From positions 1-21,843 of IMG/VR virus record IMGVR_UViG_3300025769_000968: a stretch of DNA of 21,843 nucleotides; one strand, given 5' to 3'. Positions 2,235 to 21,843 of this stretch are shown one piece after another. The notes under the pieces were generated by a model. The model ran no database searches. It was not told the origin of the DNA and saw nothing but the letters and a program-made list of their open reading frames with translations. Each line of letters opens with the position of its first letter. Within the stretch, counting starts at the first letter, position 1. Made by a program: the position numbers and the translations under genes. Source of the stretch: a virus.

Positions 2235-3043
2235 AATGGCCTCGCTTGGTTGGCAACCAACTCAACTACTTGCTTGCTTGCTCCGTGCCCCACCACCCAG
2301 TCCTTGACATCAGAACCTTTGGATGGGTACATGATTCTAACCCGTGAGACTTTGGGCTTGAGCAAACTGGCAATAGACTTTGCCCCCTGCTTGCCGGGCT
2401 TGTCGTTGTCCGCAACGATCACCACGTCATGCTTCCAGCACAGCATCTTGGTGAGGAGAATCCCACCGCCATTGCAGGACGGGCGACCCACGGCAGGCAG
2501 GCCGATCTGGTGCAGCGCCAGCGTATCCGTTGGACCCTCAGCGACGTAGACACTGCCGTGGCTGGGCGGCTTTCCAACGTAGAACAGGCCAGCCCTGCTC
2601 CCCTTGACGGCGAACTTGTTCCCGTCTGGGGTGCGAAGCCTGATGCCGATCACGGCCCCGTTGCTGGCTCGCATCGGGAACGTGTACGCCGACTTCTTGG
2701 CTGACCATCCGACCTGCATATCTTCTAGTCCCCGCCTTCTGAGGCCCGTGGATAGGACGAGATGGTCATACATGTAGCCTTCCATGGCTGCGACACACTG
2801 ATCGACGCCCCGTTGCCAGTCAATGTCCAGCGGCTCAGTGACCGCAACTGGTGCGGACACAGGCTTTGGCTGAAGCAAGGGGTTGATGACGTGAACCCAG
2901 CCCGCATCTCCTGCGCGCTTGTCACTCTCAACCCGTGGGCATATGGCTGTCGATCCATCCTTGGATACCAAGCACCAGTCAGGCTTGTTGCATATCGGGC
3001 ATGGGTTCGCCCTGCTTACTCGTTCCCAGTCCGTACTCGTCAT
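2231..3043 (-). CDS. DNA primase with zinc ribbon and Toprim domain
   Basis: This would make RNA primers for phage DNA synthesis. The N-terminus has four cysteines (C15, C18, C24, C35) with a C-x2-C-x5-C-x10-C layout, a T7 gp4/DnaG-like zinc ribbon that reads template sequence. A primase N-subdomain follows (about 90-160, with TFPMRASNGAVIGIRLRTP). The Toprim core comes next: AEGPTD (E169) and ADNDKPG (D212, D214) as metal ligands. At 270 residues it covers the primase half of a T7-type primase-helicase, with no RecA-like helicase domain attached. The ATG at 3043 has GAAGGA upstream at good spacing and overlaps the HTH gene by 65 nt. Confidence 0.88.
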   Translation of the reverse strand: MTSTDWERVSRANPCPICNKPDWCLVSKDGSTAICPRVESDKRAGDAGWVHVINPLLQPKPVSAPVAVTEPLDIDWQRGVDQCVAAMEGYMYDHLVLSTGLRRRGLEDMQVGWSAKKSAYTFPMRASNGAVIGIRLRTPDGNKFAVKGSRAGLFYVGKPPSHGSVYVAEGPTDTLALHQIGLPAVGRPSCNGGGILLTKMLCWKHDVVIVADNDKPGKQGAKSIASLLKPKVSRVRIMYPSKGSDVKDWVVGHGASKQVVELVANQARPL

Positions 3044-3245
3044 GCAACAAGTCCTTCGGGATTCCGGTTGAGTCCATCCATTTCTCCACCTCGTTTATCA
3101 ATACTCGTCTGTGCCCTGACACTGGCAACCGATACCCGATCAGGTGGCCTTTGTCGATGGCGCGAATGATTGTTTGCTGGGACACACGAGCAACTCGTGC
3201 GATCTGTCCGGTAGTCAAACTGTCAACGTCAATCTTGTGCTTCAT
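2979..3245 (-). CDS. MerR/BldC-like helix-turn-helix DNA-binding protein (88 aa)
   Basis: TTGQIARVARVSQQTIIRAI (11-30) is a helix-turn-helix. It is followed by KGHLIGYRLP and SGHRRV (32-48), the winged turn typical of MerR, BldC and excisionase-type proteins. The effector-binding domain of classical MerR regulators is absent, so it resembles a minimal BldC or Xis-like DNA binder. It lies immediately downstream of the sigma-like gene (17-nt overlap) and upstream of the primase. It may be a phage transcription regulator; a role in recombination directionality is less likely because no integrase is visible. Confidence 0.82.
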   Translation of the reverse strand: MKHKIDVDSLTTGQIARVARVSQQTIIRAIDKGHLIGYRLPVSGHRRVLINEVEKWMDSTGIPKDLLHDEYGLGTSKQGEPMPDMQQA

Positions 3246-3555
3246 CAGTGAAACCCTTTTCTAATTGGAACCAAACGTTCTTGTTATCTATGCGTCTGCG
3301 TACTGCACCGTGTGATCTCCTATATCTGTATAGCACATCCTGCGTTATCACTAACGTCAGGAAGCGTGACAGCGACCCCTTGTTAGGGTCGAACCGCCGG
3401 TCGTAGGCTCTGCGTGCAATGACGTAGAACTCTGCAACCAACTCATCCTCATCCCATCTGGCGAACCGACCGTTGATCCTGTACTTCTTTGCAAGGAAGT
3501 ACAGTAGGCCGAGGTGTTCATCCAGCGGGTGGCTCTGGCTTTTTCCATCCGCCAT
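3229..3555 (-). CDS. Sigma-70 region 2-like protein lacking region 4 (108 aa)
   Basis: Residues 35-80 (DEDELVAEFYVIARRAYDR, then FDPNKGSLSRFL and a helix ending DVLYRYRR) follow the pattern of sigma-70 region 2, which binds the RNA polymerase beta' coiled coil and the -10 element. The protein ends about 28 residues later, so the region 4 that reads the -35 box is missing. AGGA lies at a suitable distance before the ATG at 3555, and the gene overlaps the helicase 3' end by 38 nt. It may redirect host polymerase to phage promoters, alone or with a partner. The fold call is from pattern only, and another small helical DNA-binding protein is possible. Confidence 0.7.
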   Translation of the reverse strand: MADGKSQSHPLDEHLGLLYFLAKKYRINGRFARWDEDELVAEFYVIARRAYDRRFDPNKGSLSRFLTLVITQDVLYRYRRSHGAVRRRIDNKNVWFQLEKGFTDEAQD

Positions 3556-7009: not shown

Positions 7010-7231
7010 ATGCCATATCACAGAGCAAAAGACCAATCGTCACGGGTCTGGTCATCCCGAATCACCGAAGAAGAACTTGCCACGGACATACCGCCAGTGG
7101 TTTGTTCCTGCGGAGAAGACATGGAATACCTTGGCTCCTTCATTGAGGCGGGCCACGGCTGGTCAACCTTTTCCTGCAAGTGCGGCGAGACTACTTCCGT
7201 AGGGAGCCTCGACCCTCGCTCACCTGTCTGA
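7010..7231 (+). CDS. Small zinc-ribbon-like CxCG protein (73 aa)
   Basis: The ATG at 7010 is chosen for the AAGGAG at 6999-7004; longer in-frame versions would read through the structured region. The product has two CxCG knuckles (CSCG near residue 32 and CKCG near residue 57) separated by about 22 residues, a spacing typical of zinc ribbons, with a hydrophilic N-terminus. No enzyme motif is present and the family was not recognised. It could bind nucleic acid or another protein. The 3' end overlaps the end of the giant minus-strand gene tail-to-tail by 41 nt, so its last codons are complementary to coding sequence. Confidence 0.72.
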   Translation: MPYHRAKDQSSRVWSSRITEEELATDIPPVVCSCGEDMEYLGSFIEAGHGWSTFSCKCGETTSVGSLDPRSPV

Positions 7232-10200
7232 AGTCAGGACGGTTCAGATCTTCGGTCGCCTCCATCAGGATGCGGATTCTTTCTTCCAACTCTCCCGGCT
7301 CCCCGAACGGAACCTCTCGGTTGGTGAACTGGAATCGTTCGACCGCAGATTCAAGAGCCGTGGTTGGCACGTCATAATTGCGGAACTCTCCTTCAAGCAG
7401 GCTCTCAGTCAGATCTCTGCTTACTGCACCGAACGACATGCCCTGCCTGATCTGCCGATCACTGTAGCCCAGCGCACGCATGCCACCGACCAAACTCAAC
7501 AGGTCTTTCTGCAAGTTCTGCCTTGCCCCGTTGTAGTGACCGACTGCTTCAATCAGGTAATCTTCATCTACACCTCTGGCTGTTCGGATAGATGCTCGAT
7601 ACCGTGATCCCAACTCCCGGTCCAACCTGTTGAACTCTGCCAACTTGAACAAGAAGGATTGCATCGGACTGATTGTCTCAGTCTTGAAGCCAGTTGCGTG
7701 CGTAAGAATCGAGTTGGCAAGGCTGTACCTTCTGCCGTAATCGTTGACTTGTCCAGTGGCAGCGCGAACAAAGTCAATGCCCTGACCAATGAAGCCCGGC
7801 TCGATACCACTCAGTACGTGCGTAAGCAACTGGCCTGCTTGATCGAACGTGCTTGTGCCCGGCTCGACGATGGCCCGACCATTCATGTCCTTGTTGCGTA
7901 CCGCTTCGTAAGCAGCACCGAAGAACACCTCTTGCCCAATGAACGGTTGGAAGATCTGCTCAAGAGATTCAAGGATTGCCTTGTCTACATCTGAGTGTCT
8001 GCCTGCAAACAATGCGATGATTGGCTTGCGGAAGTAGACGAACGGGTCGACGTATCCGTAGTCGGTAAACTTGATCTCACCGTTCTCACCACGCTGGAAG
8101 AGCAACGTACTGTTGCGGTTCCAGAATGGAAGCATGCGTCTGATTGCTTCTTCCTCTTCATCGCTGATGCCTGACAAACTCTTGAACGCGATGGCTGCAA
8201 TGGACGGCAGGCTCAACATGATTGCCAGCCCCATCATTCGGTTGCGTCCTGCCTTCTGGATCTCTGGATTAGAGTCAGACATCTCACGGCGTGCAAGCCT
8301 GATCCTGCCAATGGTTGTCCGGATCATCTCTGCTGTGTGCGAAGGGAAGGTGCCGACGATTGGCAGGCGACGCAAAGCAAGCACTGCTTCTGGAACCATC
8401 TCGTAGTTCGGCATGGTTTGCCCAACGATCTCCGCTGCCATCGCTTCGATCTCATCATCCTTCATGAGGGGATAGGCTTTCTTCAAACGCCCAGCCTCAA
8501 TCTCGAAAGCAATGACTTTGAACACGTCATCTTCAAACGAGTACATCTGTTGCGTCTTGCCAATCACCCGTTGGGTCAGGCTTGATGTGTCACGACTGAT
8601 GCGTCCAACACGAGTCAGGAAAGAACCAAGCGTCTCGTCCGCACCTGACTGGCGAATCATGTCTTCGATCTCAACCTCGAAGCCGTAGTTGACCACGCCC
8701 AGTTCAACCATGCGGCGGTATCGTTCGCGCCGCTTCTCATCAGTCACACCAAACAAGTCGTTGCCAGCAGCAGCGGTACTCCACCACTCACGCAAGTTGG
8801 TATCCATTGCGTTGCCGTTGAAGTATCCATTGGCAATCATGTGAGGTATGTTGCCAATGAAGTTCCGTGAGTGTGTCAGTGGTGACAGCACGGTCTTGCC
8901 ATACTTGGTGAGCGCGTTGGCCTTGAAGATGAAGCCCATCAATCCACCAACGTCTGTCTTCTTAGGTTGCAGCAGGAACTCAAGAGCCTCCCGAACCTCA
9001 TGCTTGACATACAAACCATGCAGCATGTAGTCAGGCTTGAACTTGTCAGGCGAATGGATGGCAACCCACTGGTCTCCCTCGCCAATAGGAATCATGTCGC
9101 CATGAACAATCCATCCTTGCTCAATACCCATGCCACGGATGTCAGCAAACAGACGGTGGTTCTCGATGACCGCTGCCATCTTGGTGATGGTGTTGGTGTA
9201 GTTCTTGAAGATGTTATCTTCTTCACCCATGAGGGCACGCAACGCCTTGCTAAAATCATCGTCGCCAATCCTGCGCTTCATCAGGATGCTGGCACCCTTG
9301 AGGTCAGACTCCTCAATGATTGACAGCATGGCAATGGGCGACTGACTCTCCGAGCCACGCATGAGTACGCTGTTTGCCAGCGCCGCTGCCATCGTTGGAA
9401 TCTTGTCAGGGTCAAGTCGACCAGAGGCAATCTCGTCAGCGTACATCTTCTCGTACTCTTTGGTTGCCAGTTCGATGAACTTGTCTTTGACTTCTGCTGG
9501 TACGTTTTTTGCCCAGTCAGGTTCGCTAAACAACTTGTACGACCTGTTGACATACAGGCCCATGTTCTCACCGATCTTTGCACGCAAGCCATCAGGCAAG
9601 TCGAGGTTGTCTTTCAACGTAGCGGACATCTCATCAATGCTGTCACGCATGCCCCGCAAGGTAGCAAGCAAGCGAGGACTCATGCCCCTTGTCAATGGGT
9701 GTGGTCCGCTCACGTTGTAGTGGGTGCCATCGACAATGCTCTGCGGGATGCCAAGCAGCGTGTTGAGTTTTGCCATCACCGCTGCCTGCGACTCAGGAGT
9801 GACGTACTCCTCTGATACGATTTGTCTCAGGTCAATCAAGCGCTTGGCAGCACGGTCTTGCGCAGACTCAATGTGCCCCTTGCGCTGCATGTATCGTCGG
9901 AATGCGCCTTGTGGCAGGCCGCGACTGGTAGTGAAATACTTTCTGAACACCTCCCCGATTGACTTGGCAATCGAGTTGGCCTTTGGAACTGCTGCATCCA
10001 GCACGCCATCGCCAAACCGTGAGAACAGGACAGGGTTGCCTGCGTGTGCCTCGTCCTGAATCAACACATCTTTCGGATCAAACACAACTACAACCTGTGA
10101 CTCTTGCCCAGAGTTGGAACCCATGCCATCACTCACATCTTTGAAGATGACACCGGCATAGCCATCGTCCCGTGCGTCGTTGATAACCTCTTGGAATTCG

Positions 10201-13200
10201 TCCGCATCGTAGTCAGAAGTCTGATGAACATACATCTCGCCGCGAACGTGGGCTTTTACAATCGAGTGAACCTTGCCCATTTTTCTGATTCTTTTGTCTA
10301 GTCTCTCGATATCTCCGGTAAGCATGTTCTGCTTCTGGATCGCCTTGTTGAGAAACAACTCTTCATCCTTATCAATCGGAACGTCATACAATTCTCTTTC
10401 TCGATCAACTTCAGCAGCCTTCTCAAGTACAGCAATCCCTTCTTCTACATTGATGGTTCCGTACTGAGTCATGGCTGCGCGAAGGATTTGAGCGCCAGTT
10501 GGGTACGTTGCCAACTCTGCGGTGAACGCTTCAGACAGCATGTTCACTTCGTAAAGGTGTTTCATGTGGCCTGACTTGTACTGGTCGGTTTGGTCTAACT
10601 CAAACTGGAGAGTATTCAGGGCCACATCATTGAGGTTCGGCATGATCCGGGCTGGCTTCAGATTGTCTGACAGGCTTTCGATATCCGCAATCAACTCATC
10701 AACCGTGCTGAACTCTCTTGTGGTTGGACGCCTGCGATGCATATTTTCCAGAACAATCTTTGCTTGCTCTGGATCGTTTTGGTTCATTTGTTTCAGATGG
10801 TCTAGGAACGGCGTACCCTTCGGCTCCAAACTCAAACCAAAGTCAGGGTCGGACGCAATTTCTTCCAGCATGTTTTCGTAATCTTGCTGGGCCTGATACC
10901 TAAACTTCTGGTGGTACTGTCGAAGATTCTTGACAGTATCACGCATGCCCTTGGCCTGCTTGCGCGGGCTGGCAGACTCAGATACAACCTGTGACAGCAA
11001 GTCTTTGAGAGCAAGCATGTCTCCATCGAGAACCGTGCTTGGGTCTGTCACTTGCTTTAACTGCTCCGCTACTTGGGTTGCATCATCAAAATTGCCGCGA
11101 GTACCGAAAGTCGCGTCGTCGTTGTAGAAGTCACCCATGGTGGCATAGGTAGCAAGCATCTCGCCACCAGTGGTACGCGCCAGCATCTCGCTAGTAACAG
11201 CAGGCTCCAGCGGCAACTGACGCCTGATGTCAAACTTGAATTGCCTGCCGATACCATTCGGAAGTACCAGTCGGTACTTATCGTTCATATCCCTGTACTT
11301 CTTTGGGATATCTTTGTAGTCAAGCGGACGGAACGAAAACAGGTCGCCAAAATCCGTATCGCCTATGATCTCTGACTTTCGATAGGACGCATAGAAGGAT
11401 GGGTCAAGAATCAAAGCCCTTTTGAACTCTGACGTGTTGAGGCCAAGGACTTCTAACTCTGCATCTGCCTGCACCTTAGCCCTTTCTATCATGTCGATAA
11501 CGGACTCGTGATACTCCGCAACTTTGCTTGCGGTTTCCTCAGGGGTCTCCCCAAGTTCTGTCTGATACTGCTCAAGGCTTACTGCCACCGCATCTTCAAT
11601 TTCTTTTGCATAACCCCTTGCCACCATCTTGTCAGTGGTAAGGAAGATGCCAGCCTCTGCGTCCTTTGCCCCCGTGAACGAACCGAACTTATCTTTCTTG
11701 AAGTCTCCACCTTCAAGCCCGTACTTCGATTGCGTGCCGTGGTAGAAGGTGACAACCCCGCTGTCAGAATCCGTATCCACTGTCTCGATGGTTGTTCTCT
11801 CGCCAAAGTCCTCTGTCTCAGCAGAGCGGTCGGCGTAGGCGTTCATTCGTTCGAGGGTGAGGGGCTTTCTTTTGAAGGGGTTTCCGGGTTTTGATCCGTC
11901 AGGTTCGACTCCGAGGGACCAGAGTTTTCCTGCTTCGGAGTTGATATCAGCGCGGGCAAACCTGACTCCGCCGACTTCGACTTGGGCGCGGGAGAAGAAG
12001 AGTTCTCCCTTGTAGCCGCGCTCCGTAAGGAATTCATTTCTCGCTTGGCGTATCCTTCTGCGTAGAGAATCTGCATTCCTTCCGGCAACAGACTCTGGCC
12101 CGGGAGCATGCTTCGATTTGCTGATGAATCTGTTGGGGATGTCCGCCCCGACAACTTCATATTTTTCCCCGAGTCTTCTCTCGATTTCATTTAGGTTTTC
12201 CTCTGTGATGGATTCTGTTGAGCCATGGTAGGCCAAGCCGATTTGCTTGCGAGCCACGTCAAACGGGAAACTGAAACTGGTCATCTCAGCGTAGCCCGCT
12301 TCGGTGAACACGTCCTGCATTACCTTTGTGATGCGGTCAAAGTCTCTCTTGCTAGCCGGACCCTTGATAACAATACCGTTCGGCGCTTGCCCCTCATCAA
12401 CCACCTTGATGCTTTCGACAACTCCAACGCCGTGCTGGTCAAGCACGTAAGCAAGAGTTGCTGCTGCTGCGTCTGTCTGCTTCTCGCCAGCCTCGTCAAT
12501 AAAGACTTGCAATCCGGGGTTGAAGTCGCCCATCCACCACCCTCGGACAACATCCACTGAACCAAGCAAGTCAACGTTGAGGTCTCTGCCAATAGTGTTC
12601 CACTCCTCGTTGAGAATCTTGGCAGCCTGCTGCTCAAACTTTCTGCGCTGTGCGTAAGGGAGTTTGCCAAAGAATTGTGCCTGCTCTCCTTCTTGCATTG
12701 CATCCGGCTTGCTTTCACCTGTCAGCCTTCGCGAGAAAAACAAGTCCTGCCGCATGTTGTGCGACATCATGTTGGTGGTGATGTTTGCCATGCGTGCCAT
12801 TGACTTGGAGGAGTCAGGGTTTGGCATTACCGGGGTGGTAGGCAGCAACATGCCAAGCGCATCGCGCATCTGGAACATGTCAAATTTTGCCCCACTGATC
12901 TTGATGTCTCCAAGTTCCACCCCGTACTTAGACATGACTTGATTGATGTTGCTGTCTAGCAGAGTTCTGAATGCAGGATTGGCAACATACTCAGCCATGT
13001 ACTCAAGCATGGATGACATGCCGTACTCGCCGGTAAGCATCCCTTGTGCATACGGCATCCTGTAATCCATGATTGCGCCAAAGTTGTTCAAGAGTCCAGA
13101 ATTGGCTGCATCTTGGAAGAACTCTACAGCCGCAATGCGCAGGTTCCCCGGGTTGGACTTCATTACGCTCTCTGCCAACTTATGGAGATCTGTCAGAGCA

Positions 13201-16200
13201 TCACGATAGTCAGGGTCTGTGATGTTCTTTGTCAGCGTTTTGTAATCGGTAAGCAGAGAAACAAAGTGGGCAACCATGAAGTCGTTGGCTACATATGCAG
13301 TTGACCCGTATCTCATCTTTGCCAACTGCGCACGCTGCTCCGGTTGCAGGCGAGAGACTGGGCCTTCTACCGCAAGCATTTCCTTGTTGCCTGAAAGTTT
13401 CAACGTTTCCTTGTTTGACGTTGCCAGTGCGGCTAGGGACGGGAGGGCGTCCAAGATGATGGTCAACTCGGCACCAAGGTGGTTGCTCTCGTCCATCATG
13501 CCGACGGCTTTCGGGTCTATGTTCACCAAAGAATAGAGGTCGGTGTTTTCTTTCGGAGTAACCCATGCCGGGTTAGTCGGCACCACTTCTGCCAGTGTGA
13601 AAGAGATCGTGTTCTGGCTAACGGCGTGCGTGTATTCGTGCAGGATTGTTGCCACTGCGCTTTCCAAACCCGCCGTCTTGCGCTCAGATCTATCCATGTC
13701 GATGGACATAAGATCCATGCCTGAAGCCGTAGAGAAACTTGAGTGCGTGCCAACTGCATCGGTTGTATTTGCAAGCACTCCGGTCGGGTTGAAGTGGACA
13801 ACGGAGTTCTCAGACATGCTGCCAGCGCTGTTCAGCAAAGATTTGGCAGTAGCCTTAGACACGTCAGAAATAAATTCTGACTCTGCAACACGTTTCATCA
13901 GGGTCTTTGTGTAGTAGGTGACGCCGAAGTTAGTCGATAGAATCGGCGTAATTACACGCTTCATCTCAAGCATGAAGGCAAAGCGGTCAATGTTGCCAGC
14001 GATGAGATCGTCAACCAACTGGTCTGTCTGGAGACCTGCTTCCAAGGTAGCGGCCTTCGCGTTCAGAACCATCATGGATGCTTCGTCTTTGGTTGCAAGT
14101 CCGAACCTATACAGTTCGTCCGCCATCTCCACTTGATCCTCAAGCATGAAGACCATTGTGTTCCGCATGTTGTCTTTCAACACAGTCAAGTCAAGGTTGG
14201 GATCGTTGAGATCCATAGCGGACAACACACGCACAGGGCTTTCGAGGTTCGACCCATCCAGACCAAAGTAGTCATCAATGAGTCTTTGCCCCATAATTGC
14301 ACCCATGCCTGCGATGGGCAGGCCGCTTGCCAGACCATCCCGCTTGAGTTGCGCAACCCTTGGATCTTTCTTCCGCCGTTGATTGACCACAGGGTTGAGT
14401 GCGTGCTTCGGGTCGTCGATATCGTCATCAAGAAACCCTGCGATTGGAGGCCGCATAGATCCCGAGCGCTCCCCAATCGCGTCAACAGTCAGCGATGTTG
14501 AGATTGACGGGCGCTGACTGTCAACGTCTGCTCTTGAGAACATTGGCTGGGTAAGCGTGCCCACGTCAAGCGCACGCACCCGGTTGGAAATAGCCCTGTC
14601 CAGCCGAGCCGACAGGTTTCTCGCCTTCACGGTGGCATCGTCAGAGAATGGAGAGCGGATTGCATCTGCAATCAAATCAGACTCGCTGCCAGCCATGCTG
14701 CCCATAGCCAGACGTGCCTTGACGCCCTGCCGCTGGGGCCGGTATGTCCCAGTGCGTCCAAAGAACTGCCGATATAGATCGCTAGGGGTAGCAGAAACGC
14801 CATTCTCAGCCAGTTCTGAGGTCGTTTCTGTGCCATAAACAGCGCGTCGGCGGGCGATACCAGCCTTGATTTCGTCCGTCATCTCAACAGGAGTGCGCGC
14901 AAACATGGCAGCAGGCGTGCCAGTTTCATCAGGATCGACAGCCGTCTCGGGATTGAACTCCGAATCCAGTTTGCCGAACGTCTGACTAATCTCTACGAAC
15001 GATCCGTCTTCGACTCGCTGCGAGTGGCCTGCCATCATCTCGTGCAAAGCATCCCAGCGGTCACGAGTTTCCCAGTCTGCGTCTTCTGGGGTGAAATCAA
15101 TCAAAGATCGCAGGGTGTTCTTCATCCGGCGAATGACTGGGATGTTGCGGCTGTTGTTTGCAAGAGAAGTGATAACACCACGTGCCAAGTCCGGGTTGGC
15201 AGTAGCCATGCGCTGGATGTAGTAAGCGCCAGTCTCTTCTAAGATGCGCTTTGCTCTTGCTTTCTGCTCCTCGTTGCCATTTAGAGCCAACTCAAAAGCG
15301 CCAGCCAGTGCTTGCTCGACCTCGGTGATAGTAGTAAGGGTGCCCCGTTCTCCAGTAATTGGGTCTGCTTCAGCCCGTCTGGCAATAGCAAATGCTTCGC
15401 GGAAGCCATCTGGGTCTTGCTCCATGGCATTCATAAGGAAGTCAACGGCAGCGCGGCGGTCTTGCCGCATCACACCGTGGAACACCTCGTGTCCCATAAG
15501 TGAATCAAACACAGTCCGGTCAAGAGATGCGTCTGCATTGATGTAGATCACACCAGTATCAGACGAGATGGTTGCTGCCACATCGCCGGGCACTGGCTTT
15601 CTTGTGTCACCCTCTTTGGTGTAAAAGAACACCACACGCAAGCCGCGCTCTGCGTACCCCTGCTGAGTTGTCTTCTGACTGTCAGACATTTCATCTGGCC
15701 CGAGTACAACTAGGTCAAGATTTTCATTACCCTTTCCGTTGTTTGCTTGCTTGCGCAGGTTCTGTTCTAGATCTGCCTCAAAGCCTCTGCCTGCTTCTGC
15801 TACCTCTCCCGCCTCCGTCGAGTCAGCCACTTCATCCGCCACCCCCTCCGGCGTGCCCCTTGAGAACCTAGGCGCATCATCAGTAGTGTCGGGAACATCC
15901 GCTTCTTCACCTTCTTTTGCAGAGATAGCCTCCTCGCCTCGCGCTTCAAGTGCATCCAGAAGAACTTGACTGTTGCCCTTAGTGACCCGGTCAAGCAGTT
16001 TCTTTTCTGGCCCAGTCATCGGGTTGTCTGGATCAGGGTAGAGCATCTTGCTCATCATTGAATCAGCAATAGCGTTTGCTTCTTCATCACTGGCACCGTC
16101 TGCTTTTGCTGCTACTACCACGTCGTCAGCAACCCGCTGGATCACATCGTCAGTAGTGACCCCATCAGTTGTCACCTCCTCGATATAGGACGGCGCAGCC

Positions 16201-18422
16201 TCAGGAGTCAGACCACCAATCAATGCTCCCTCAATCTCAGACTCCACCCGAGCAGTGGACTCAGCAGAGATCTTGCGCAGTTCTCCAAGATCTTTTTCTG
16301 ACAATGAGTCGAGGAACCGAATCAACTCTTGATTCTTGCCAAGCGTAAACAACTGCGCTTTCTTTTTGGCAGCAGCGATGTTGTTTGAGTCCAAGGTGGC
16401 AAGGAACTCTGCCAACTGCGGCATCTCTTTGGCAATCTCAATCTTGAATGCACCAGCAAACGCGCCGGGATTCTTACCTTTGCCAGTGTCCTTGTCGGAG
16501 GTGTTGATAAGGTTGAGCGTCATGCGCTCAGTCTGAGGGCCAAAGATTGCGCGAAGGCTTCGCGTCTGGTCTTTGTTGCTGGCAATGCTAGTCAATGCTT
16601 TTTGGATGTACTGTTCGGGTGCGCCCGCAGCCCGCAAGACCTTTTCAAACTTGGCTTTGCTGCGCATGATGTTCAGGTTGTGGAGTCCCCGAATCATCAC
16701 AGATGAGACCGCGCCGCCAAGCGGCTCGTCATCGTGCAGCATCATCTGTTCTCTAAACTCAATACGCAACCGGCGGTTGACGCTCTTGATGTTCTCCTCT
16801 GTTACGTTGACAAACTCGTAACCGGTGCGCTGTCTATTTCGTAGTTTGACCGTGGTTCCAACTTCGGCTGGCGCAAGATTCATAGCCAGATTCATGTTTG
16901 AAATCGTGCCGCCGAAGCCACCTGTGGCGAAAGAGATTGCGCCAATGGTTTTCATTTCCTCAAGGTACTCAGGGCTAAACAAGGCTTGGTTTGCTAACTC
17001 TGCATCCCCACGCACGTTTTTGAAATACGCACGCTGAAAAGTATTTTCAAGCAATTCCTGCCCTGACTCTCGGAAGCCGCCCAAGGCGTATGCGCCATAA
17101 GCAGTATCTTCGACGACCGCGACCAGATTGCGCATGAACGCGGGCTTGGTTGCAAACTTGCCTATGCCTCCGACAATGGACTCGGAAACGCCAGTCATTA
17201 GGCCAGCGAATGCACCATCTTGAAGAGAGCGCGAACGCGCTTCGTCGGGGTCCATGCCATTGCCGATGTAGTATTCGTATCTCTGCTTTTGCGTTGTGCC
17301 TTGGACGTATCCCATGGCAGTTCCGACAAAGCCCACGAACGAAAGGCCGAGAGGAGCCAATGCCCCACTGACAAGCATCTGCATGGCAAGTTGACCAGCA
17401 GCGGAACCAAAGCCTTCAACAAACTTTGGTCCTTCGTACTGAACAAGTTCTTGGTATGGCTTGGCCCAATCTTCGCCCAGCACATCCTCGGATATGCGAT
17501 CAATAGCGGCTGCGTAGTCTGGATCAGCAAGGTTGGCAAACCCGCGCACTGACATAGGAATAACTTGTTGAGCGGTGTGCTGCGCATTTTCTAAGATGTG
17601 TTGCACGCTCGTGCTAAACGGTCGCACGTTTTCGTTAATCATGGTTCCAAACACGCCAAGACCAGCGGCGGCTTCGCCCTCTAGTTTGGCACCCATGATT
17701 CGATTGTTGACCCGCATTGCCGCAAGCGCTTCAACATATTTCTGCCCGAGGTTTGACTGGCTTCTTGCCATGGCAACAGCGTTTTCCAACTCAAACTCGT
17801 TTTCCAACTGGTCAGCAGAGATGTATTCGCCAACGTCCTCGCCGCGTCCACCCATGCGGGGAGGAGCCTCGACGTAGTCTTTAAACTCTTCGTACTCATC
17901 AAGCGTGATGGACTTTTTGCCAGAAAAAAAGTTCTCGTGCATCCGGCGGTGTGATACAGGGATGCGCAGCAACTTGACTGCTCTTCCGTTATCGTCAACT
18001 ACAGCAATGGGCCGCGCTGTATACACCTCGCCAATCTGATAATCAGCACTGGTGCCCATGACTGGCTCAACAAAGTTGTCTAAAAAGAAACTTCCCTTCT
18101 TGCCTTGGTAGCCGCCACCTGCTTCTTCGAGCGGCTCTAGTCCTTTTTCTCCTCTCAAGACGCGCGCTTCCCGATTACCTAACTGTCCAAAGTTGCGTTG
18201 CAGGAACGAATAGACGTGGTCAAAGGTGTAGTTGCCAGTTATATTATGGACGCCCTCACGGTGGTAAGCAGCATCACCAGCAGCCTCATCCATCTTGGCC
18301 CTGATTGCGGCATCATTTGTGGAAGTGAGCATATCCATGCCGAGCGTCGAAACGTCGGAAAGGTTGAGCGCCCCTTGGAACGCCTGCTCTGCTTTAGTTG
18401 CTGCGTCAGTGAAGTCTCGCAT
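7191..18422 (-). CDS. Giant polyvalent virion-type protein with two zincin motifs, ART module and LPD38-like end
   Basis: One uninterrupted 3743-residue frame (roughly 410 kDa). Visible parts in order: helical N-terminus with Gly/Ala-rich hydrophobic segments (about 341-375 and 402-423); long helical region; zincin motif HEVFH (978-982); helical stretch; second zincin HEYTHA (1595-1600), with EYMAEYVANPAF (from 1807) as candidate third-ligand helix; an alpha/beta region; an ART-like module with YHGT (2227-2230), then GIFLTTD and ARGYA, and later HLYEVNM (2622), GYAGVIF (2754) and ESQVVVVFDP (2774); and an LPD38-like C-terminus (about 2800-3743) with SPLTHSRNFIGN and a hydrophobic helix near 3400. 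F-[S/A]-R linkers recur. This matches the polyvalent proteins of phages and conjugative elements, thought to be delivered with DNA to modify host targets. It follows the 568-residue gene after an 11-nt gap. No virion RNA polymerase or transglycosylase motif was seen. Confidence 0.9.
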   Translation of the reverse strand: MRDFTDAATKAEQAFQGALNLSDVSTLGMDMLTSTNDAAIRAKMDEAAGDAAYHREGVHNITGNYTFDHVYSFLQRNFGQLGNREARVLRGEKGLEPLEEAGGGYQGKKGSFFLDNFVEPVMGTSADYQIGEVYTARPIAVVDDNGRAVKLLRIPVSHRRMHENFFSGKKSITLDEYEEFKDYVEAPPRMGGRGEDVGEYISADQLENEFELENAVAMARSQSNLGQKYVEALAAMRVNNRIMGAKLEGEAAAGLGVFGTMINENVRPFSTSVQHILENAQHTAQQVIPMSVRGFANLADPDYAAAIDRISEDVLGEDWAKPYQELVQYEGPKFVEGFGSAAGQLAMQMLVSGALAPLGLSFVGFVGTAMGYVQGTTQKQRYEYYIGNGMDPDEARSRSLQDGAFAGLMTGVSESIVGGIGKFATKPAFMRNLVAVVEDTAYGAYALGGFRESGQELLENTFQRAYFKNVRGDAELANQALFSPEYLEEMKTIGAISFATGGFGGTISNMNLAMNLAPAEVGTTVKLRNRQRTGYEFVNVTEENIKSVNRRLRIEFREQMMLHDDEPLGGAVSSVMIRGLHNLNIMRSKAKFEKVLRAAGAPEQYIQKALTSIASNKDQTRSLRAIFGPQTERMTLNLINTSDKDTGKGKNPGAFAGAFKIEIAKEMPQLAEFLATLDSNNIAAAKKKAQLFTLGKNQELIRFLDSLSEKDLGELRKISAESTARVESEIEGALIGGLTPEAAPSYIEEVTTDGVTTDDVIQRVADDVVVAAKADGASDEEANAIADSMMSKMLYPDPDNPMTGPEKKLLDRVTKGNSQVLLDALEARGEEAISAKEGEEADVPDTTDDAPRFSRGTPEGVADEVADSTEAGEVAEAGRGFEADLEQNLRKQANNGKGNENLDLVVLGPDEMSDSQKTTQQGYAERGLRVVFFYTKEGDTRKPVPGDVAATISSDTGVIYINADASLDRTVFDSLMGHEVFHGVMRQDRRAAVDFLMNAMEQDPDGFREAFAIARRAEADPITGERGTLTTITEVEQALAGAFELALNGNEEQKARAKRILEETGAYYIQRMATANPDLARGVITSLANNSRNIPVIRRMKNTLRSLIDFTPEDADWETRDRWDALHEMMAGHSQRVEDGSFVEISQTFGKLDSEFNPETAVDPDETGTPAAMFARTPVEMTDEIKAGIARRRAVYGTETTSELAENGVSATPSDLYRQFFGRTGTYRPQRQGVKARLAMGSMAGSESDLIADAIRSPFSDDATVKARNLSARLDRAISNRVRALDVGTLTQPMFSRADVDSQRPSISTSLTVDAIGERSGSMRPPIAGFLDDDIDDPKHALNPVVNQRRKKDPRVAQLKRDGLASGLPIAGMGAIMGQRLIDDYFGLDGSNLESPVRVLSAMDLNDPNLDLTVLKDNMRNTMVFMLEDQVEMADELYRFGLATKDEASMMVLNAKAATLEAGLQTDQLVDDLIAGNIDRFAFMLEMKRVITPILSTNFGVTYYTKTLMKRVAESEFISDVSKATAKSLLNSAGSMSENSVVHFNPTGVLANTTDAVGTHSSFSTASGMDLMSIDMDRSERKTAGLESAVATILHEYTHAVSQNTISFTLAEVVPTNPAWVTPKENTDLYSLVNIDPKAVGMMDESNHLGAELTIILDALPSLAALATSNKETLKLSGNKEMLAVEGPVSRLQPEQRAQLAKMRYGSTAYVANDFMVAHFVSLLTDYKTLTKNITDPDYRDALTDLHKLAESVMKSNPGNLRIAAVEFFQDAANSGLLNNFGAIMDYRMPYAQGMLTGEYGMSSMLEYMAEYVANPAFRTLLDSNINQVMSKYGVELGDIKISGAKFDMFQMRDALGMLLPTTPVMPNPDSSKSMARMANITTNMMSHNMRQDLFFSRRLTGESKPDAMQEGEQAQFFGKLPYAQRRKFEQQAAKILNEEWNTIGRDLNVDLLGSVDVVRGWWMGDFNPGLQVFIDEAGEKQTDAAAATLAYVLDQHGVGVVESIKVVDEGQAPNGIVIKGPASKRDFDRITKVMQDVFTEAGYAEMTSFSFPFDVARKQIGLAYHGSTESITEENLNEIERRLGEKYEVVGADIPNRFISKSKHAPGPESVAGRNADSLRRRIRQARNEFLTERGYKGELFFSRAQVEVGGVRFARADINSEAGKLWSLGVEPDGSKPGNPFKRKPLTLERMNAYADRSAETEDFGERTTIETVDTDSDSGVVTFYHGTQSKYGLEGGDFKKDKFGSFTGAKDAEAGIFLTTDKMVARGYAKEIEDAVAVSLEQYQTELGETPEETASKVAEYHESVIDMIERAKVQADAELEVLGLNTSEFKRALILDPSFYASYRKSEIIGDTDFGDLFSFRPLDYKDIPKKYRDMNDKYRLVLPNGIGRQFKFDIRRQLPLEPAVTSEMLARTTGGEMLATYATMGDFYNDDATFGTRGNFDDATQVAEQLKQVTDPSTVLDGDMLALKDLLSQVVSESASPRKQAKGMRDTVKNLRQYHQKFRYQAQQDYENMLEEIASDPDFGLSLEPKGTPFLDHLKQMNQNDPEQAKIVLENMHRRRPTTREFSTVDELIADIESLSDNLKPARIMPNLNDVALNTLQFELDQTDQYKSGHMKHLYEVNMLSEAFTAELATYPTGAQILRAAMTQYGTINVEEGIAVLEKAAEVDRERELYDVPIDKDEELFLNKAIQKQNMLTGDIERLDKRIRKMGKVHSIVKAHVRGEMYVHQTSDYDADEFQEVINDARDDGYAGVIFKDVSDGMGSNSGQESQVVVVFDPKDVLIQDEAHAGNPVLFSRFGDGVLDAAVPKANSIAKSIGEVFRKYFTTSRGLPQGAFRRYMQRKGHIESAQDRAAKRLIDLRQIVSEEYVTPESQAAVMAKLNTLLGIPQSIVDGTHYNVSGPHPLTRGMSPRLLATLRGMRDSIDEMSATLKDNLDLPDGLRAKIGENMGLYVNRSYKLFSEPDWAKNVPAEVKDKFIELATKEYEKMYADEIASGRLDPDKIPTMAAALANSVLMRGSESQSPIAMLSIIEESDLKGASILMKRRIGDDDFSKALRALMGEEDNIFKNYTNTITKMAAVIENHRLFADIRGMGIEQGWIVHGDMIPIGEGDQWVAIHSPDKFKPDYMLHGLYVKHEVREALEFLLQPKKTDVGGLMGFIFKANALTKYGKTVLSPLTHSRNFIGNIPHMIANGYFNGNAMDTNLREWWSTAAAGNDLFGVTDEKRRERYRRMVELGVVNYGFEVEIEDMIRQSGADETLGSFLTRVGRISRDTSSLTQRVIGKTQQMYSFEDDVFKVIAFEIEAGRLKKAYPLMKDDEIEAMAAEIVGQTMPNYEMVPEAVLALRRLPIVGTFPSHTAEMIRTTIGRIRLARREMSDSNPEIQKAGRNRMMGLAIMLSLPSIAAIAFKSLSGISDEEEEAIRRMLPFWNRNSTLLFQRGENGEIKFTDYGYVDPFVYFRKPIIALFAGRHSDVDKAILESLEQIFQPFIGQEVFFGAAYEAVRNKDMNGRAIVEPGTSTFDQAGQLLTHVLSGIEPGFIGQGIDFVRAATGQVNDYGRRYSLANSILTHATGFKTETISPMQSFLFKLAEFNRLDRELGSRYRASIRTARGVDEDYLIEAVGHYNGARQNLQKDLLSLVGGMRALGYSDRQIRQGMSFGAVSRDLTESLLEGEFRNYDVPTTALESAVERFQFTNREVPFGEPGELEERIRILMEATEDLNRPDFRQVSEGRGSLRK

Positions 18423-18433
18423 AGGTTCTCGAT

Positions 18434-20140
18434 TTAGATTCCTGCTGGCCTACGGTCTTGTTGGAGCGCTCTGGATTCGGCAGTGCCAGATCCAAGCGCC
18501 CGCTCTTCAGACTTGACTTTGGCTTCATGTTTTGCCGCTGCAATCTGCCCGTTGTACTGGTCAGAGTAAGCCATAGCCGTGGCTGCTGCCACTTGGGAAA
18601 GAGTGAAATTGCCACCGGCAGCGTTCAACCGCTGCATAGTTTTCATCACGTCGTAGTTCTTGATTGACGCATCTCCGGGTCCAGCAACATGCTGTTCCAA
18701 GAAGTCAACGTAAGAAATGCGAGATCGCGCCTGCGAGTGCAGGTGTTGCGCGTTGCGCATGCGATCCATAAGCGGCTTGACCGCTCGCATGTAGGCACGC
18801 TCTGCACGGTTGCGCTGATTGCCATCCTCTACTGGGTCAGCCGCCATGGCTGCTTCGATGAAGGCTCGATATCTTTCCGTAGAAAGCGGGCCGGTCTCAA
18901 GAGCGTTGATCTCTAACTCGGTAACTTTCATCAGGTGGGTGTTAGCCACACGCGCTTCCGCGTTTTGCTTGCGCATACCGTTGGTTTTCATGCGCTCCAC
19001 TGCAAACTGATCTGGCGACTTCATAGCGCCCAAAACGCTAGAGCGCATTGCATCCCCACGCCTGCCAAATCCAGCCTCTACAAAAGCCTCGACGTGCGCC
19101 ATTTTGATTTGCTCGTCGGTTGGGTCTTCAGGCAGCGCCTTAAGGCGCTTAGTAAATTCTTCTTGGTACTTTTCGTACCTGCCCTTGTATACGTTGTAAG
19201 CCTCTTCGTTTTCTTTTGACAAGATTGTCGGGTCGGACATGGCCTCAAGACGAGAGGTTTCAAGATCGAAGTCTTTGCTGAGGGCAGCGGTGGCAGACTG
19301 CATTTTTGCCAGATAATCTTCCTCTTCTTGTGCCAGAGCCAACGCTTCCTGCTGGAGTCTTTCCTGTGCTTGTTGCTGCACAGATTGCACCCTGTTGAAA
19401 TCAATGGTGTCAAACAGGGTGCTGTTGTTGCGGTACAACTCTGCCAGCGCTTGGTCACGTTCTTCTGCACGCAGACTTGTGTTGCTATCAATAGCATCAA
19501 TTTGCCGCTGCAAGTCTCGGTGCCGTGCCAATGTATCTGTATCGCCAAACTCTTGTGCGTAGTTCAGCACGTCTGCCATGCTGCTGGCAAGACGCTGCTT
19601 GATTCTCGCAATGCCTTCAGGCGTTTTGTAGTCCAGCACTTCAAACGAATCGGTGGCGGGGTTGAAAACAACAGTGGTAATCTTGCCAGTTTCAATGTCG
19701 AACCTGCCATACGTGCCGTCGTCACGCAAGATTGTTTGGTTGTCAGCCAGACCTGTGGTGTCAATCTGCCCATCTACGTACCTTGCCTGCACCGGTCTTT
19801 TTGAGGCTACGGGTGCAGATGCTATTTGTGGGGCGTCACCAAGCCGTGAACCCATAAACCCTGAGCCAGCACCCGTAAATAACGGCCCGACTCTTGCTGC
19901 ACGAGCGTCTTTCCGCTCTTGATCTTTTTGATTGCGGAGCGCTTCGGCGTCTTCTTTAATTAAGCCACGAAGAACATCTTGTTCGAGTTTTAGTTGGTTG
20001 ATTGTTTCCTCTAGATCAACCCGCTTGTCCGTCTGGACGGTTGTTTCGGCAGCGCCCCCCTGTGCTGCCAAGTTCTTAAGTTGTTGGTTGGCTTCTCTGA
20101 GCCTCTTTTGAACGCCACGGAGATCATCTCGTCTATTCAT
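18434..20140 (-). CDS. Probable internal virion (ejection) protein, helical (568 aa)
   Basis: No family was recognised. The N-terminus (1-85) is a strong coiled coil rich in Leu, Glu, Arg and Gln. A flexible Gly/Ala/Pro segment follows (about 86-120), then a small beta-type patch (YGRFDIETGKITTVVFNP, about 145-165), and from about 175 long Gln/Ala/Glu-rich helices to the end. There is no signal peptide or enzyme motif. Size, helicity and position just before the giant gene match internal core/ejection proteins of podoviruses, so co-assembly with the giant protein is plausible. The start shares one base with the preceding stop (TAATG), and AGGA sits 3 nt upstream of the ATG. A tail or scaffold role cannot be excluded. 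Confidence 0.8.
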   Translation of the reverse strand: MNRRDDLRGVQKRLREANQQLKNLAAQGGAAETTVQTDKRVDLEETINQLKLEQDVLRGLIKEDAEALRNQKDQERKDARAARVGPLFTGAGSGFMGSRLGDAPQIASAPVASKRPVQARYVDGQIDTTGLADNQTILRDDGTYGRFDIETGKITTVVFNPATDSFEVLDYKTPEGIARIKQRLASSMADVLNYAQEFGDTDTLARHRDLQRQIDAIDSNTSLRAEERDQALAELYRNNSTLFDTIDFNRVQSVQQQAQERLQQEALALAQEEEDYLAKMQSATAALSKDFDLETSRLEAMSDPTILSKENEEAYNVYKGRYEKYQEEFTKRLKALPEDPTDEQIKMAHVEAFVEAGFGRRGDAMRSSVLGAMKSPDQFAVERMKTNGMRKQNAEARVANTHLMKVTELEINALETGPLSTERYRAFIEAAMAADPVEDGNQRNRAERAYMRAVKPLMDRMRNAQHLHSQARSRISYVDFLEQHVAGPGDASIKNYDVMKTMQRLNAAGGNFTLSQVAAATAMAYSDQYNGQIAAAKHEAKVKSEERALGSGTAESRALQQDRRPAGI

Positions 20141-21432
20141 TATCCTGACCTCTTGGTAAAGCCTGCAAGTGTTGCGTTAGATGGCAATCTAACCTCTCCT
20201 CCAACATTTGTCACAGAAGTCAGGTCTACCAGTGTGGAAGCACCATCGGCTCTAAGGACGCCGCCGTAAATTTCGACCGTCCCCAAGTCAACCAGTTCGT
20301 TTGCAGATCGAGACTTGACTCGGCTGAAGTCTGCCTCTCCTCCAAATAATGCAAGATGTGTTTCGCCTGAAGCAAGGTCTTGATCGCTCTGGTGCAAATA
20401 CCTGCCTTTGCCCATGACAGTGATAGTTGCAGGCGTGTGGTGCGTCGTACCGGCTGAACTTGCAGCAGTAGAAATAGTGCCGCTGCCGTCAATCTTGCCA
20501 GACTCTTTGACTGTCAAAGTCCCAGTGCCCGTCACGATTGCTCTAGATTTGGGGCGGGTCGCCGCTGATAGTTCTACAAAGCCTGAGTCCATGTAGATAT
20601 CGTTTATGTAAACGCTAGTCGATGGAATTTCAACAATGCAGGACCGAGAAACATCGGCAATTTTTACGAACTCAGTACCGCCGTTGCCAGTGTGCGTGGC
20701 GTTGATGACAATTCTGCCTCCAACACCTTGGCCCATAATGCTAATTTTGTGGAATTGCTCGTTGAGTTTGAGTGTGCCCCTGTTCTGGGTGACAAACACA
20801 TTTTCGATGTCGCCTTCAATATTGTAGTAGCGCCCCCCGCCACCAAAAGTCGCACCCTTTTCCCCACCGTCGTTGCAGTCAATTTGGAGTGCAGCGGTTT
20901 CAGTCCCAATGTTGCCTGTGTAACCCGGCCCAACGATAAACTGGTCGAGTTGCAGTGTTGGGTCTGGGATCAAACCATAGAGAACATCGTTTGAGCCTTC
21001 TGTGAAGTAGACAATAGCCTCGTCTACGGGCACTGAGCCAAGGCTCCAGTTGGCAGCCGTGCCAAAATCGTTTGGGCCAGCATTTGCAGTGGTGGTTGCG
21101 ACCGTATATGCGGTGTTGCCATTGTCACTGACAGCCAACTTGAACGGCCTGCCAGCCAAGTCGGCTGTGATTGTCACAGTGTCAGTTGATACCGTGTAGG
21201 TCAGGCGGGAAAAAAGAGACAACGAACTGCTGGCAAGCGCAGACTGCACAGCCGACGCAGTGGTGTTGTTGTTGGTGTCCGCAACCGTGTGCGTGACTGC
21301 TTGCGTAGAGCCGTCTTCAGCAGTCAAGGTAATAGTGACTGTGTTGCCTGCTTCGGACGTGGTAAACCGGATGGTCTGCACCTGCGCAACAGCAGTTGCC
21401 CCGCCGATCCATCTGTTGTGAGTTGTTGTCAT
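20140..21432 (-). CDS. Beta-rich phage structural protein, possible fibre or decoration protein (430 aa)
   Basis: The N-terminal ~120 residues are a Thr/Val-rich beta domain (VTITLTAEDG, TVTITADLAGRPF). A GTAANWSLGSVPVDEAIV segment links it to a C-terminal half of short strands with Gly/Asp/Asn turns (VIVTG-, TLTVKESGKIDGSG-like), as in right-handed beta-helices. The N-W-S...VP...D layout is one I associate with surface and virion proteins carrying parallel beta-helices. No catalytic residues stand out. It starts with ATG at 21432 inside the stop of the preceding gene (ATGA) and lies in the structural row. Tail fibre, spike or capsid-surface protein are all possible. Confidence 0.8.
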   Translation of the reverse strand: MTTTHNRWIGGATAVAQVQTIRFTTSEAGNTVTITLTAEDGSTQAVTHTVADTNNNTTASAVQSALASSSLSLFSRLTYTVSTDTVTITADLAGRPFKLAVSDNGNTAYTVATTTANAGPNDFGTAANWSLGSVPVDEAIVYFTEGSNDVLYGLIPDPTLQLDQFIVGPGYTGNIGTETAALQIDCNDGGEKGATFGGGGRYYNIEGDIENVFVTQNRGTLKLNEQFHKISIMGQGVGGRIVINATHTGNGGTEFVKIADVSRSCIVEIPSTSVYINDIYMDSGFVELSAATRPKSRAIVTGTGTLTVKESGKIDGSGTISTAASSAGTTHHTPATITVMGKGRYLHQSDQDLASGETHLALFGGEADFSRVKSRSANELVDLGTVEIYGGVLRADGASTLVDLTSVTNVGGEVRLPSNATLAGFTKRSG

Positions 21433-21734
21433 ATGAGGTACACCTTTGTCAGTGCGTTGGGATCTGACGAGCCGTTAGCCGTCGAGGTTTTCATGCGAAT
21501 TGCGTACACCCCAGTTACATCAACCGCCGTGGTTGTGCCCGGAGCGCTGTTGGTAAGCGTGGTTGCTGTGTCGAAGAAATTCTCTCCGTCAGCAGAATAT
21601 TGGAGTTTGGCAATACCGCTGCCAATAGACAGAGATGCGTCTGGATCTGGGATCAGATGCAGCAGCGCGTGCCGGTACCGAGCAATGAGAACTGGCGCAG
21701 AAACGCCCGCCTCATCAGTCAGATTTATTCTCAT
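21429..21734 (-). CDS. Small probable structural protein (101 aa)
   Basis: The product reads as a beta-sandwich-like protein (MRINLTDEAG, LQYSADGENFFDTATTLT, TGVYAIRMKT, a final TKVYLI strand), in keeping with a small virion component. No family was assigned. The ATG at 21734 is preferred; a TTG at 21761 in the same frame would add nine residues and overlap more of the upstream gene. The ribosome site is weak (GGGAAAG too far upstream), so translation may be coupled to the upstream gene, whose stop lies 20 nt inside this frame. The 3' end overlaps the next gene by ATGA. Confidence 0.72.
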   Translation of the reverse strand: MRINLTDEAGVSAPVLIARYRHALLHLIPDPDASLSIGSGIAKLQYSADGENFFDTATTLTNSAPGTTTAVDVTGVYAIRMKTSTANGSSDPNALTKVYLI

Positions 21735-21843
21735 CTCTGCTGTCTTTCCCAAACTTAGCAATCCTGTTTAAAAACTTTTGACGCTTGCGGCAGCCGCAGC
21801 CTTTCTTCTTAAATCTTCGGAATGGGGTCTTGTCAATTGTGAC
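21715..21843 (-). CDS. 3' end of a basic Cys-containing phage protein (partial)
   Basis: A minus-strand frame is open from the right edge and stops at the TGA at 21717-21715, giving 42 residues. It is highly basic, with a GCGCRKRQKFLNRI core and an acidic/polar tail ending ENKSD. A C-x(1-2)-C-x-K-R-x3-L-N pattern is frequent in short phage proteins of unknown role, which supports a real gene. Its stop overlaps the start of the next gene by 20 nt, matching the style of the gene row. The start lies outside the window, so length and other domains are unknown. Confidence 0.6.
   Translation of the reverse strand, partial: VTIDKTPFRRFKKKGCGCRKRQKFLNRIAKFGKDSRDENKSD

Follow-up and report, generated by a model that had tools for sequence, protein, structure and literature searches.

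A 3,743-residue protein without a single cysteine is encoded in the window, the whole stretch of DNA analyzed here, which is an IMG/VR virus record of 21,843 bp. We consider it likely that this giant is a podophage ejection protein that doubles as a carrier of polyvalent effectors, from a phage that is known from a genome fragment alone; it is probably packed in the virion of a marine-type short-tailed phage and passed into the bacterium alongside the DNA. The ejection of the giant, its enzyme activities, and their targets we infer from homology, genomic context, and composition. The giant and some 120 sequenced relatives avoid cysteine almost completely, and this complete exclusion is the strongest physical evidence for the ejection of the giant. 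The protein is a variant of the known phage polyvalent proteins. The exclusion of cysteine appears to be a general rule in podophages, and we lean slightly toward the view that it is complete in the proteins that these phages pass through the host envelope, irrespective of fold and enzymatic payload.

RESULTS

An earlier note on this DNA had described a single uninterrupted frame of 3743 residues without giving its strand; the frame runs on the minus strand (18422..7191), with an ATG start, a TAG stop, and zero internal stops (Table 1). Residues 1060-3743 are encoded at 99.96% identity by a second contig, IMGVR_UViG_3300025803_000242, so that this part of the protein is real and not an assembly artifact, and residues 1-1059 are supported by the window contig alone. 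The motifs named in the note were all found in the giant, HEVFH at residue 978, HEYTH at 1595, YHGT at 2227, and ESQVVVVFDP at 2774-2783. The note had also placed hydrophobic segments at the N terminus, which is correct for residues 345-373 but not for the other two hydrophobic stretches (1648-1669 and 3394-3420).

Table 1. Coordinates of the giant gene, its predicted regions, and the genes upstream of it
Feature	Position	Strand	Basis
Likely giant polyvalent ejection protein	7191..18422	-	3743 aa, 0 cysteines
TM-like hydrophobic segment (aa 345-373)	17304..17390	-	hydropathy
Zincin-like region 1 (aa 951-1001, HEVFH 978-982)	15420..15572	-	relatives' zincin profile
Zincin-like motif 2 (aa 1590-1606, HEYTH 1595-1599)	13605..13655	-	motif; weak profile score
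ART-PolyVal-like domain, N-terminal half (aa 2224-2275, YHGT...GIFLT)	11598..11753	-	PF18760; alignment A8
Insert between ART halves, about 460 aa (aa 2276-2734)	10221..11597	-	mostly helical, low-confidence model
ART-like domain, C-terminal half (aa 2735-2800, GYAGVIF...QVVVVFDP)	10023..10220	-	alignment A8, relatives' ARTs
All-helical conserved C-terminal domain (aa 2785-3743)	7194..10070	-	tblastn, phrog_22602, hhalign, AF2, VIA-align 2
Candidate partner gene upstream of the giant (568 aa, no Cys)	18434..20140	-	Cys count; context in relatives
Upstream gene, 430 aa, 2 Cys	20140-21432	-	weak PHROG 29986 match
Upstream gene, 110 aa, 0 Cys	21429-21761	-	Cys count

The total absence of cysteine had been missed in the earlier note. 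At a background of 0.5-1%, the probability of finding no cysteine in 3,743 residues is 1e-8 to 1e-16, and codon or base composition was ruled out as the cause by the other two forward frames of the gene, which hold 160 and 197 cysteine codons. Eighty relatives together contain 8 cysteines in 173,495 aa, compared with 1,424/185,009 (0.77%) in neighboring ORFs, the control being all other ORFs of at least 150 aa at the same loci. After reduction to a nonredundant set (80% redundancy, 43 relatives), 5 cysteines remained in 98,447 aa, all of them in payloads (5/57,018) and none in the C-terminal domain (0/41,429). In the LPD38 family (38 loci, redundant), 20 cysteines were counted in 93,578 aa versus 1,001/86,393. 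The sharpest control is the comparison of one homologous region, the LPD5-zincin-LPD1 module, which contains no cysteine across 6,198 aligned aa of 17 podophage-type proteins, some of them close relatives, whereas six plasmid-type or jumbo-phage proteins have 14 in 1,171 aa. Of four more LPD5-LPD1 giants, three are without cysteine, and that of phi296 has two, located elsewhere in the chain. Wherever it could be done, controls were taken from an E. coli phage propagated on K-12 and from environmental records in preference to named toxin-converting phages, and only short flanking sequences were used.

Known ejected proteins share this composition: T7 gp15 and gp16, N4 gp50, gp51, and gp52, and P22 gp7, gp16, and gp20 all have zero cysteines, and not one occurs in the 21,235 aa of six virion RNA polymerases (vRNAPs) of the Schitoviridae, including that of N4; five of the six are complete, and the other is truncated where its locus begins. 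Several cysteines were counted in portal, tail, and terminase proteins of T7, N4, and P22, and cysteine is present in the virion proteins phi19:3 gp120 (9), N4 gp65 (11), P22 gp9 (8), and T7 gp12 (5). The exclusion is strong but not absolute, since T7 gp14 and gp6.7 each hold one cysteine and the crAss001 cargo (gp45-gp47, gp49, and gp50, including the virion RNA polymerase subunits) holds 7 in 7,478 aa; the non-virion enzymes of crAss001 have 1.5-2%. Nor does the absence of cysteine alone prove ejection, since the N4 major capsid protein, the P22 and T7 scaffolds, and T4 gp29 are also cysteine-free. The last of these is a baseplate hub/tail-length protein of 590 aa, and the same constraint may apply to tape-measure proteins. 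Cysteine does occur in proteins injected by long-tailed phages (P1 DarB, 9; DdrB, 2; DarA, 1; T4 Alt, 3), in a comparison that is small and covers a few proteins from two phages.

Sequence relatives of the giant were found through its C-terminal domain. A tblastn search with the last 966 aa matched Pseudoalteromonas phage Y3, Cellulophaga phages phi19:3, phi18:3, and phi13:2, Pelagibacter phage HTVC027P, and 023Pt_psg01, and matched C75C1 weakly. A profile scan with the C-terminal ~960 aa returned 80 IMG/VR loci, of 136 relatives; none was confirmed in GTDB genome contigs. The domain matches PHROG 22602 (virion structural protein) with an E value of 1.2e-43, and its relatives carry the same annotation, which for phi18:3 gp123 is based, according to the record, on "experimental MS/MS proteomics analysis." In HTVC027P and phi19:3, the structural module ends with the relative's gene. 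The proposal in the earlier note that the gene belongs to a late or virion module, with a product that is probably packaged and delivered, thus agrees with the detection of phi18:3 gp123 in virions.

The same note had called the C terminus LPD38-like. Profile alignment with LPD38 giants (hhalign; Prob 85.5, E = 5.7e-6) extended over 394 collinear columns at about 13% identity, with reversed decoys at 0.56-0.57; the match was weak against a 3-sequence LPD38 alignment and clear only with deeper alignments. Pfam LPD38 (PF18857) gave no match in the giant at E <= 1 and none in 37 scanned relatives at E <= 1e-3. The profile comparison therefore supports an assignment of the C-terminal domain as a remote homologue of the LPD38 family, outside the reach of the Pfam model. 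An alignment with the C termini of N4-type vRNAPs (E = 0.0046, 55 columns; reversed decoys, 0.02 and 0.06) is at most suggestive of a likeness to the N4 C-terminal domain (CTD).

The predicted structure of the C-terminal domain (AF2, 43-row alignment; pLDDT 76.6, pTM 0.74) is nearly all helical. Its fold matches in BFVD were phi19:3 and many entries named "large polyvalent protein," with one matched entry named LPD38 (E = 5.5e-8) and others bearing ART, zeta-toxin, RelA/SpoT, helicase, or LT_GEWL names. With Foldseek, no match to the PDB was found for the model at E <= 1e-3. Among the top six VIA-align 2 rows, three were podophage ejectosome/core proteins: PhiM1 8vb2_A (rank 1; Z 9.3, rmsd 6.6, 270 aligned), T7 9jyy_I (rank 2; Z 7.5, rmsd 6.7, 248 aligned), and E1004 9vvp_W (rank 6; Z 7.1, rmsd 6.6, 225 aligned). 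All three scores lie below the Z of ~13 that is a safe level for helical folds, and lower values can arise by chance. The matched proteins are nevertheless the functionally expected ones, and we tentatively suggest a T7 gp16-type ejectosome fold for residues ~2812-3281 of the model. The N4 vRNAP was absent from the VIA-align list, an absence that does not count against a shared fold.

Assignments in the N-terminal ~2,780 residues are less secure. Of the two peptidases proposed earlier, the first is the better founded: a profile built from the HExxH regions of relatives scored region 1 at 14.2 bits in the whole protein and 20.0 bits in a slice, compared with 2.5 bits for the best of 200 shuffles. 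The second is recognized mainly by its motif and reached 5.3-9.9 bits with the same profile. Among 200 shuffles of the giant, 12 had a single HExxH and none had two, so that the presence of both motifs is unlikely to be due to chance; a peptidase function for either region is putative. The ART-like module of the earlier note was likewise recovered in part. Pfam PF18760 (ART-PolyVal) matched with an E value of 3.4e-5, but at 25.1 bits, under the cutoff of 31.2, and over profile positions 7-46 of 140 only. An alignment with the ARTs of six relatives suggests that the second half resumes ~460 residues further on, so that the giant may contain a split ART-like domain. Structure prediction of slices had been proposed as a check, and the ART slice (residues 2205-2800) was modeled by AF2 with a pLDDT of 47.9 and a pTM of 0.27, which is not a confident fold. 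A second ART candidate at YHGS 2065 was dropped, as no additional ART motifs were found nearby.

No relatives of residues 1-2777 were found by tblastn in phages or plasmids; in IMG/VR, only the near-identical contig was returned, by scans that can detect only close relatives. A comparison of residues 1-700 with the N termini of relatives, in search of a shared N-terminal module, gave nothing above shuffles.

The relatives (80 proteins of 730-4,015 aa, some truncated at contig ends) are fusions of the conserved C-terminal part to freely exchanged N-terminal effectors. Among 37 that were scanned, we found ART-PolyVal (11), LPD1 (9), LPD5 (7), MuF_C (5), InPase (4), LPD3 (3), and ddrB-ParB (3), along with single cases of RadC, a helicase, GGDEF, an ATLF-type zincin, and a 2'-5' RNA ligase/Acb1-like domain. 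The combination of several disparate domains in one polypeptide is clear in the relatives; in the giant itself, the ART match is subthreshold and the zincin is recognized by profile. The joining of the conserved part to known polyvalent effector domains upholds the view taken in the earlier note that the giant is a phage polyvalent protein. The Acb1-like domain lies at residues 786-905 of a cysteine-free giant relative (L040), with a Pfam Acb1 match at E = 7.9e-4, below the cutoff; a delivered anti-CBASS activity is possible.

The gene directly upstream of the giant's relatives, often 450-540 aa in length, encodes a cysteine-free protein in 27 of 33 cases. In the window, the 568-aa upstream protein is a candidate second ejection protein (channel or scaffold), and the products of the 430-aa and 110-aa genes are probably virion or appendage proteins.

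DISCUSSION

Polyvalent proteins were defined by Iyer et al. in 2017, who placed LPD38 among the phage-type domains (PMC5512222); the word "cysteine" does not occur in that paper. The giant resembles the phage-type proteins described there in its great length, multidomain makeup, late-gene context, and ART-PolyVal-like and zincin-like regions, and its relatives share ddrB-ParB, MuF-C, InPase, and LPD1/3/5 with them. It differs in that its N-terminal ~2,780 residues have no detectable relatives beyond the near-identical contig. With the LPD38 proteins (PF18857; giants of Sepvirinae/933W-type podophages), it has in common the collinear remote homology, an ejection-gene-like neighborhood, and near-zero cysteine, although the Pfam model and the low identity set the two apart. 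Among the close known counterparts are Cellulophaga phi18:3 gp123 and phi19:3 gp129 (Pachyviridae), whose C-terminal domains are homologous at 26-27% identity, whereas the proteins are much shorter (1,871-1,990 aa) and have an unrelated N terminus. Like the giant, phi19:3 gp129 has zero cysteines, as do the IMG/VR entries L045, L046, and L051, which match these phages in record length. Similar to N4 gp50 (Schitoviridae; ~3,500 aa, ejected), the giant combines zero cysteines, an HExxH region, and a large helical C-terminal domain with cysteine-free partner genes upstream; with T7 gp16 and the PhiM1 ejectosome core, it may have a fold in common, and T7 gp16 likewise has zero cysteines, but no sequence similarity was detected, and its effector payload is far larger.

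On this basis, we propose that the giant would be packed in the capsid together with the upstream cysteine-free 568-aa protein and that, upon adsorption, it would exit before the DNA, partly unfolded, via the portal and tail. The helical C-terminal domain could then help to build or anchor an envelope-crossing ejectosome, while the N-terminal ~2,780 residues, with their two zincin-like regions, split ART-like domain, and orphan segments, would regain their fold in the cytoplasm and act there as effectors, possibly freed by the zincins. The zincins of polyvalent proteins have been proposed to process the polypeptide (PMC5512222), and those of the giant may cleave their own chain rather than host targets. 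In N4 and T7, ejection proteins exit the capsid by a narrow channel and partner proteins make a trans-envelope tunnel; in one model, the N4 vRNAP is unfolded en route (PMC12633501, PMC8954989). The whole chain would be thiol-free because any cysteine in a chain that crosses an oxidizing compartment unfolded could be drawn into a disulfide or cross-link. Our hypothesis is that this partly unfolded passage is the reason for the exclusion of cysteine; it would explain why the exclusion goes with the route of delivery instead of with fold or activity.

Three other readings have to be weighed against this proposal. The absence of cysteine was noted previously in the StenR_269 giant and its Zobellviridae counterparts, where it was taken as a sign of a vRNAP like that of N4 (PMC10747016), and the giant could by analogy be a divergent N4-type virion RNA polymerase. 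The similar size, the zero cysteines, and the HExxH region (N4 gp50 scores 20.6 bits with the zincin profile) fit this idea, as does the weak C-terminal profile similarity to the N4 CTD. However, no polymerase core was found when residues 1-2800 were aligned by hhalign to a Schitoviridae core profile (E of 0.08 or higher, with 0.43 for the reversed control), no sequence match to the N4 polymerase structures in the PDB was obtained, and the relatives bear ART, MuF-C, InPase, and other domains instead; we therefore regard a polymerase as very improbable. Our results suggest that the absence of cysteine marks ejection, not a polymerase. Hardly more probable in our estimation is a structural or tail protein that stays with the particle, carrying decayed effector-like domains and a low cysteine content that reflects a general depletion in virion proteins. 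The subthreshold, interrupted ART match and cysteine-free virion proteins that are not ejected, the N4 major capsid protein among them, would be in line with this, but the cysteine-bearing virion proteins listed above come from the same phages, and the swapped payloads are also depleted, with the homologous module cysteine-free where its plasmid-type counterparts have cysteine.

A more serious alternative, which we nevertheless think doubtful, accepts the ejection of the giant and attributes the exclusion to a different cause, either oxidation during long storage in the virion or a constraint of assembly. In its favor, capsid and scaffold proteins without cysteine are known, and environmental samples are the source of many of the relatives. 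Against it stands the finding that the injected proteins of P1 and T4, which also reside inside virions, keep their cysteines, albeit in a small comparison, and that cysteine is excluded in the enteric podophages T7, N4, and P22 just as it is in the marine ones. We thus continue to favor passage across the envelope as the origin of the signature.

The work bears on two questions: which proteins a phage delivers into the cell alongside its DNA, and by what means chains of 1,300-3,700 residues get through a channel of 25-45 Å. Reports of cysteine absence prior to this were limited to the StenR_269 and Zobellviridae giants, and the literature searched contained no statement of it as a general rule. 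If the rule is true, ejected effectors, including unknown ones, could be read directly from sequence, and captured effector domains would be purged of cysteine on recruitment into an ejected protein. A near-absolute signature common to unrelated ejected proteins would provide a one-line computational test for ejection, point to unfolding and passage through an oxidizing compartment as the selective force, and join the LPD38 polyvalent giants, the marine family, and, tentatively, the T7 and N4 ejectosome proteins into one functional class.

Two loci with related giants are of additional note. In phage Y3 (OR779980.1), a direct repeat (13073-13372 and 14073-14372, exactly 1000 nt from start to start) sits where a 3421-aa and a 1027-aa gene join, and the split into two ORFs may reflect a recent duplication or an assembly artifact rather than a true gene split. 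A 54-kb plasmid of Endozoicomonas gorgoniicola (NZ_CP103299.1) encodes a cysteine-free LPD38/LPD5/LPD1 giant with short same-strand genes upstream and has the appearance of a phage or a phage-plasmid.
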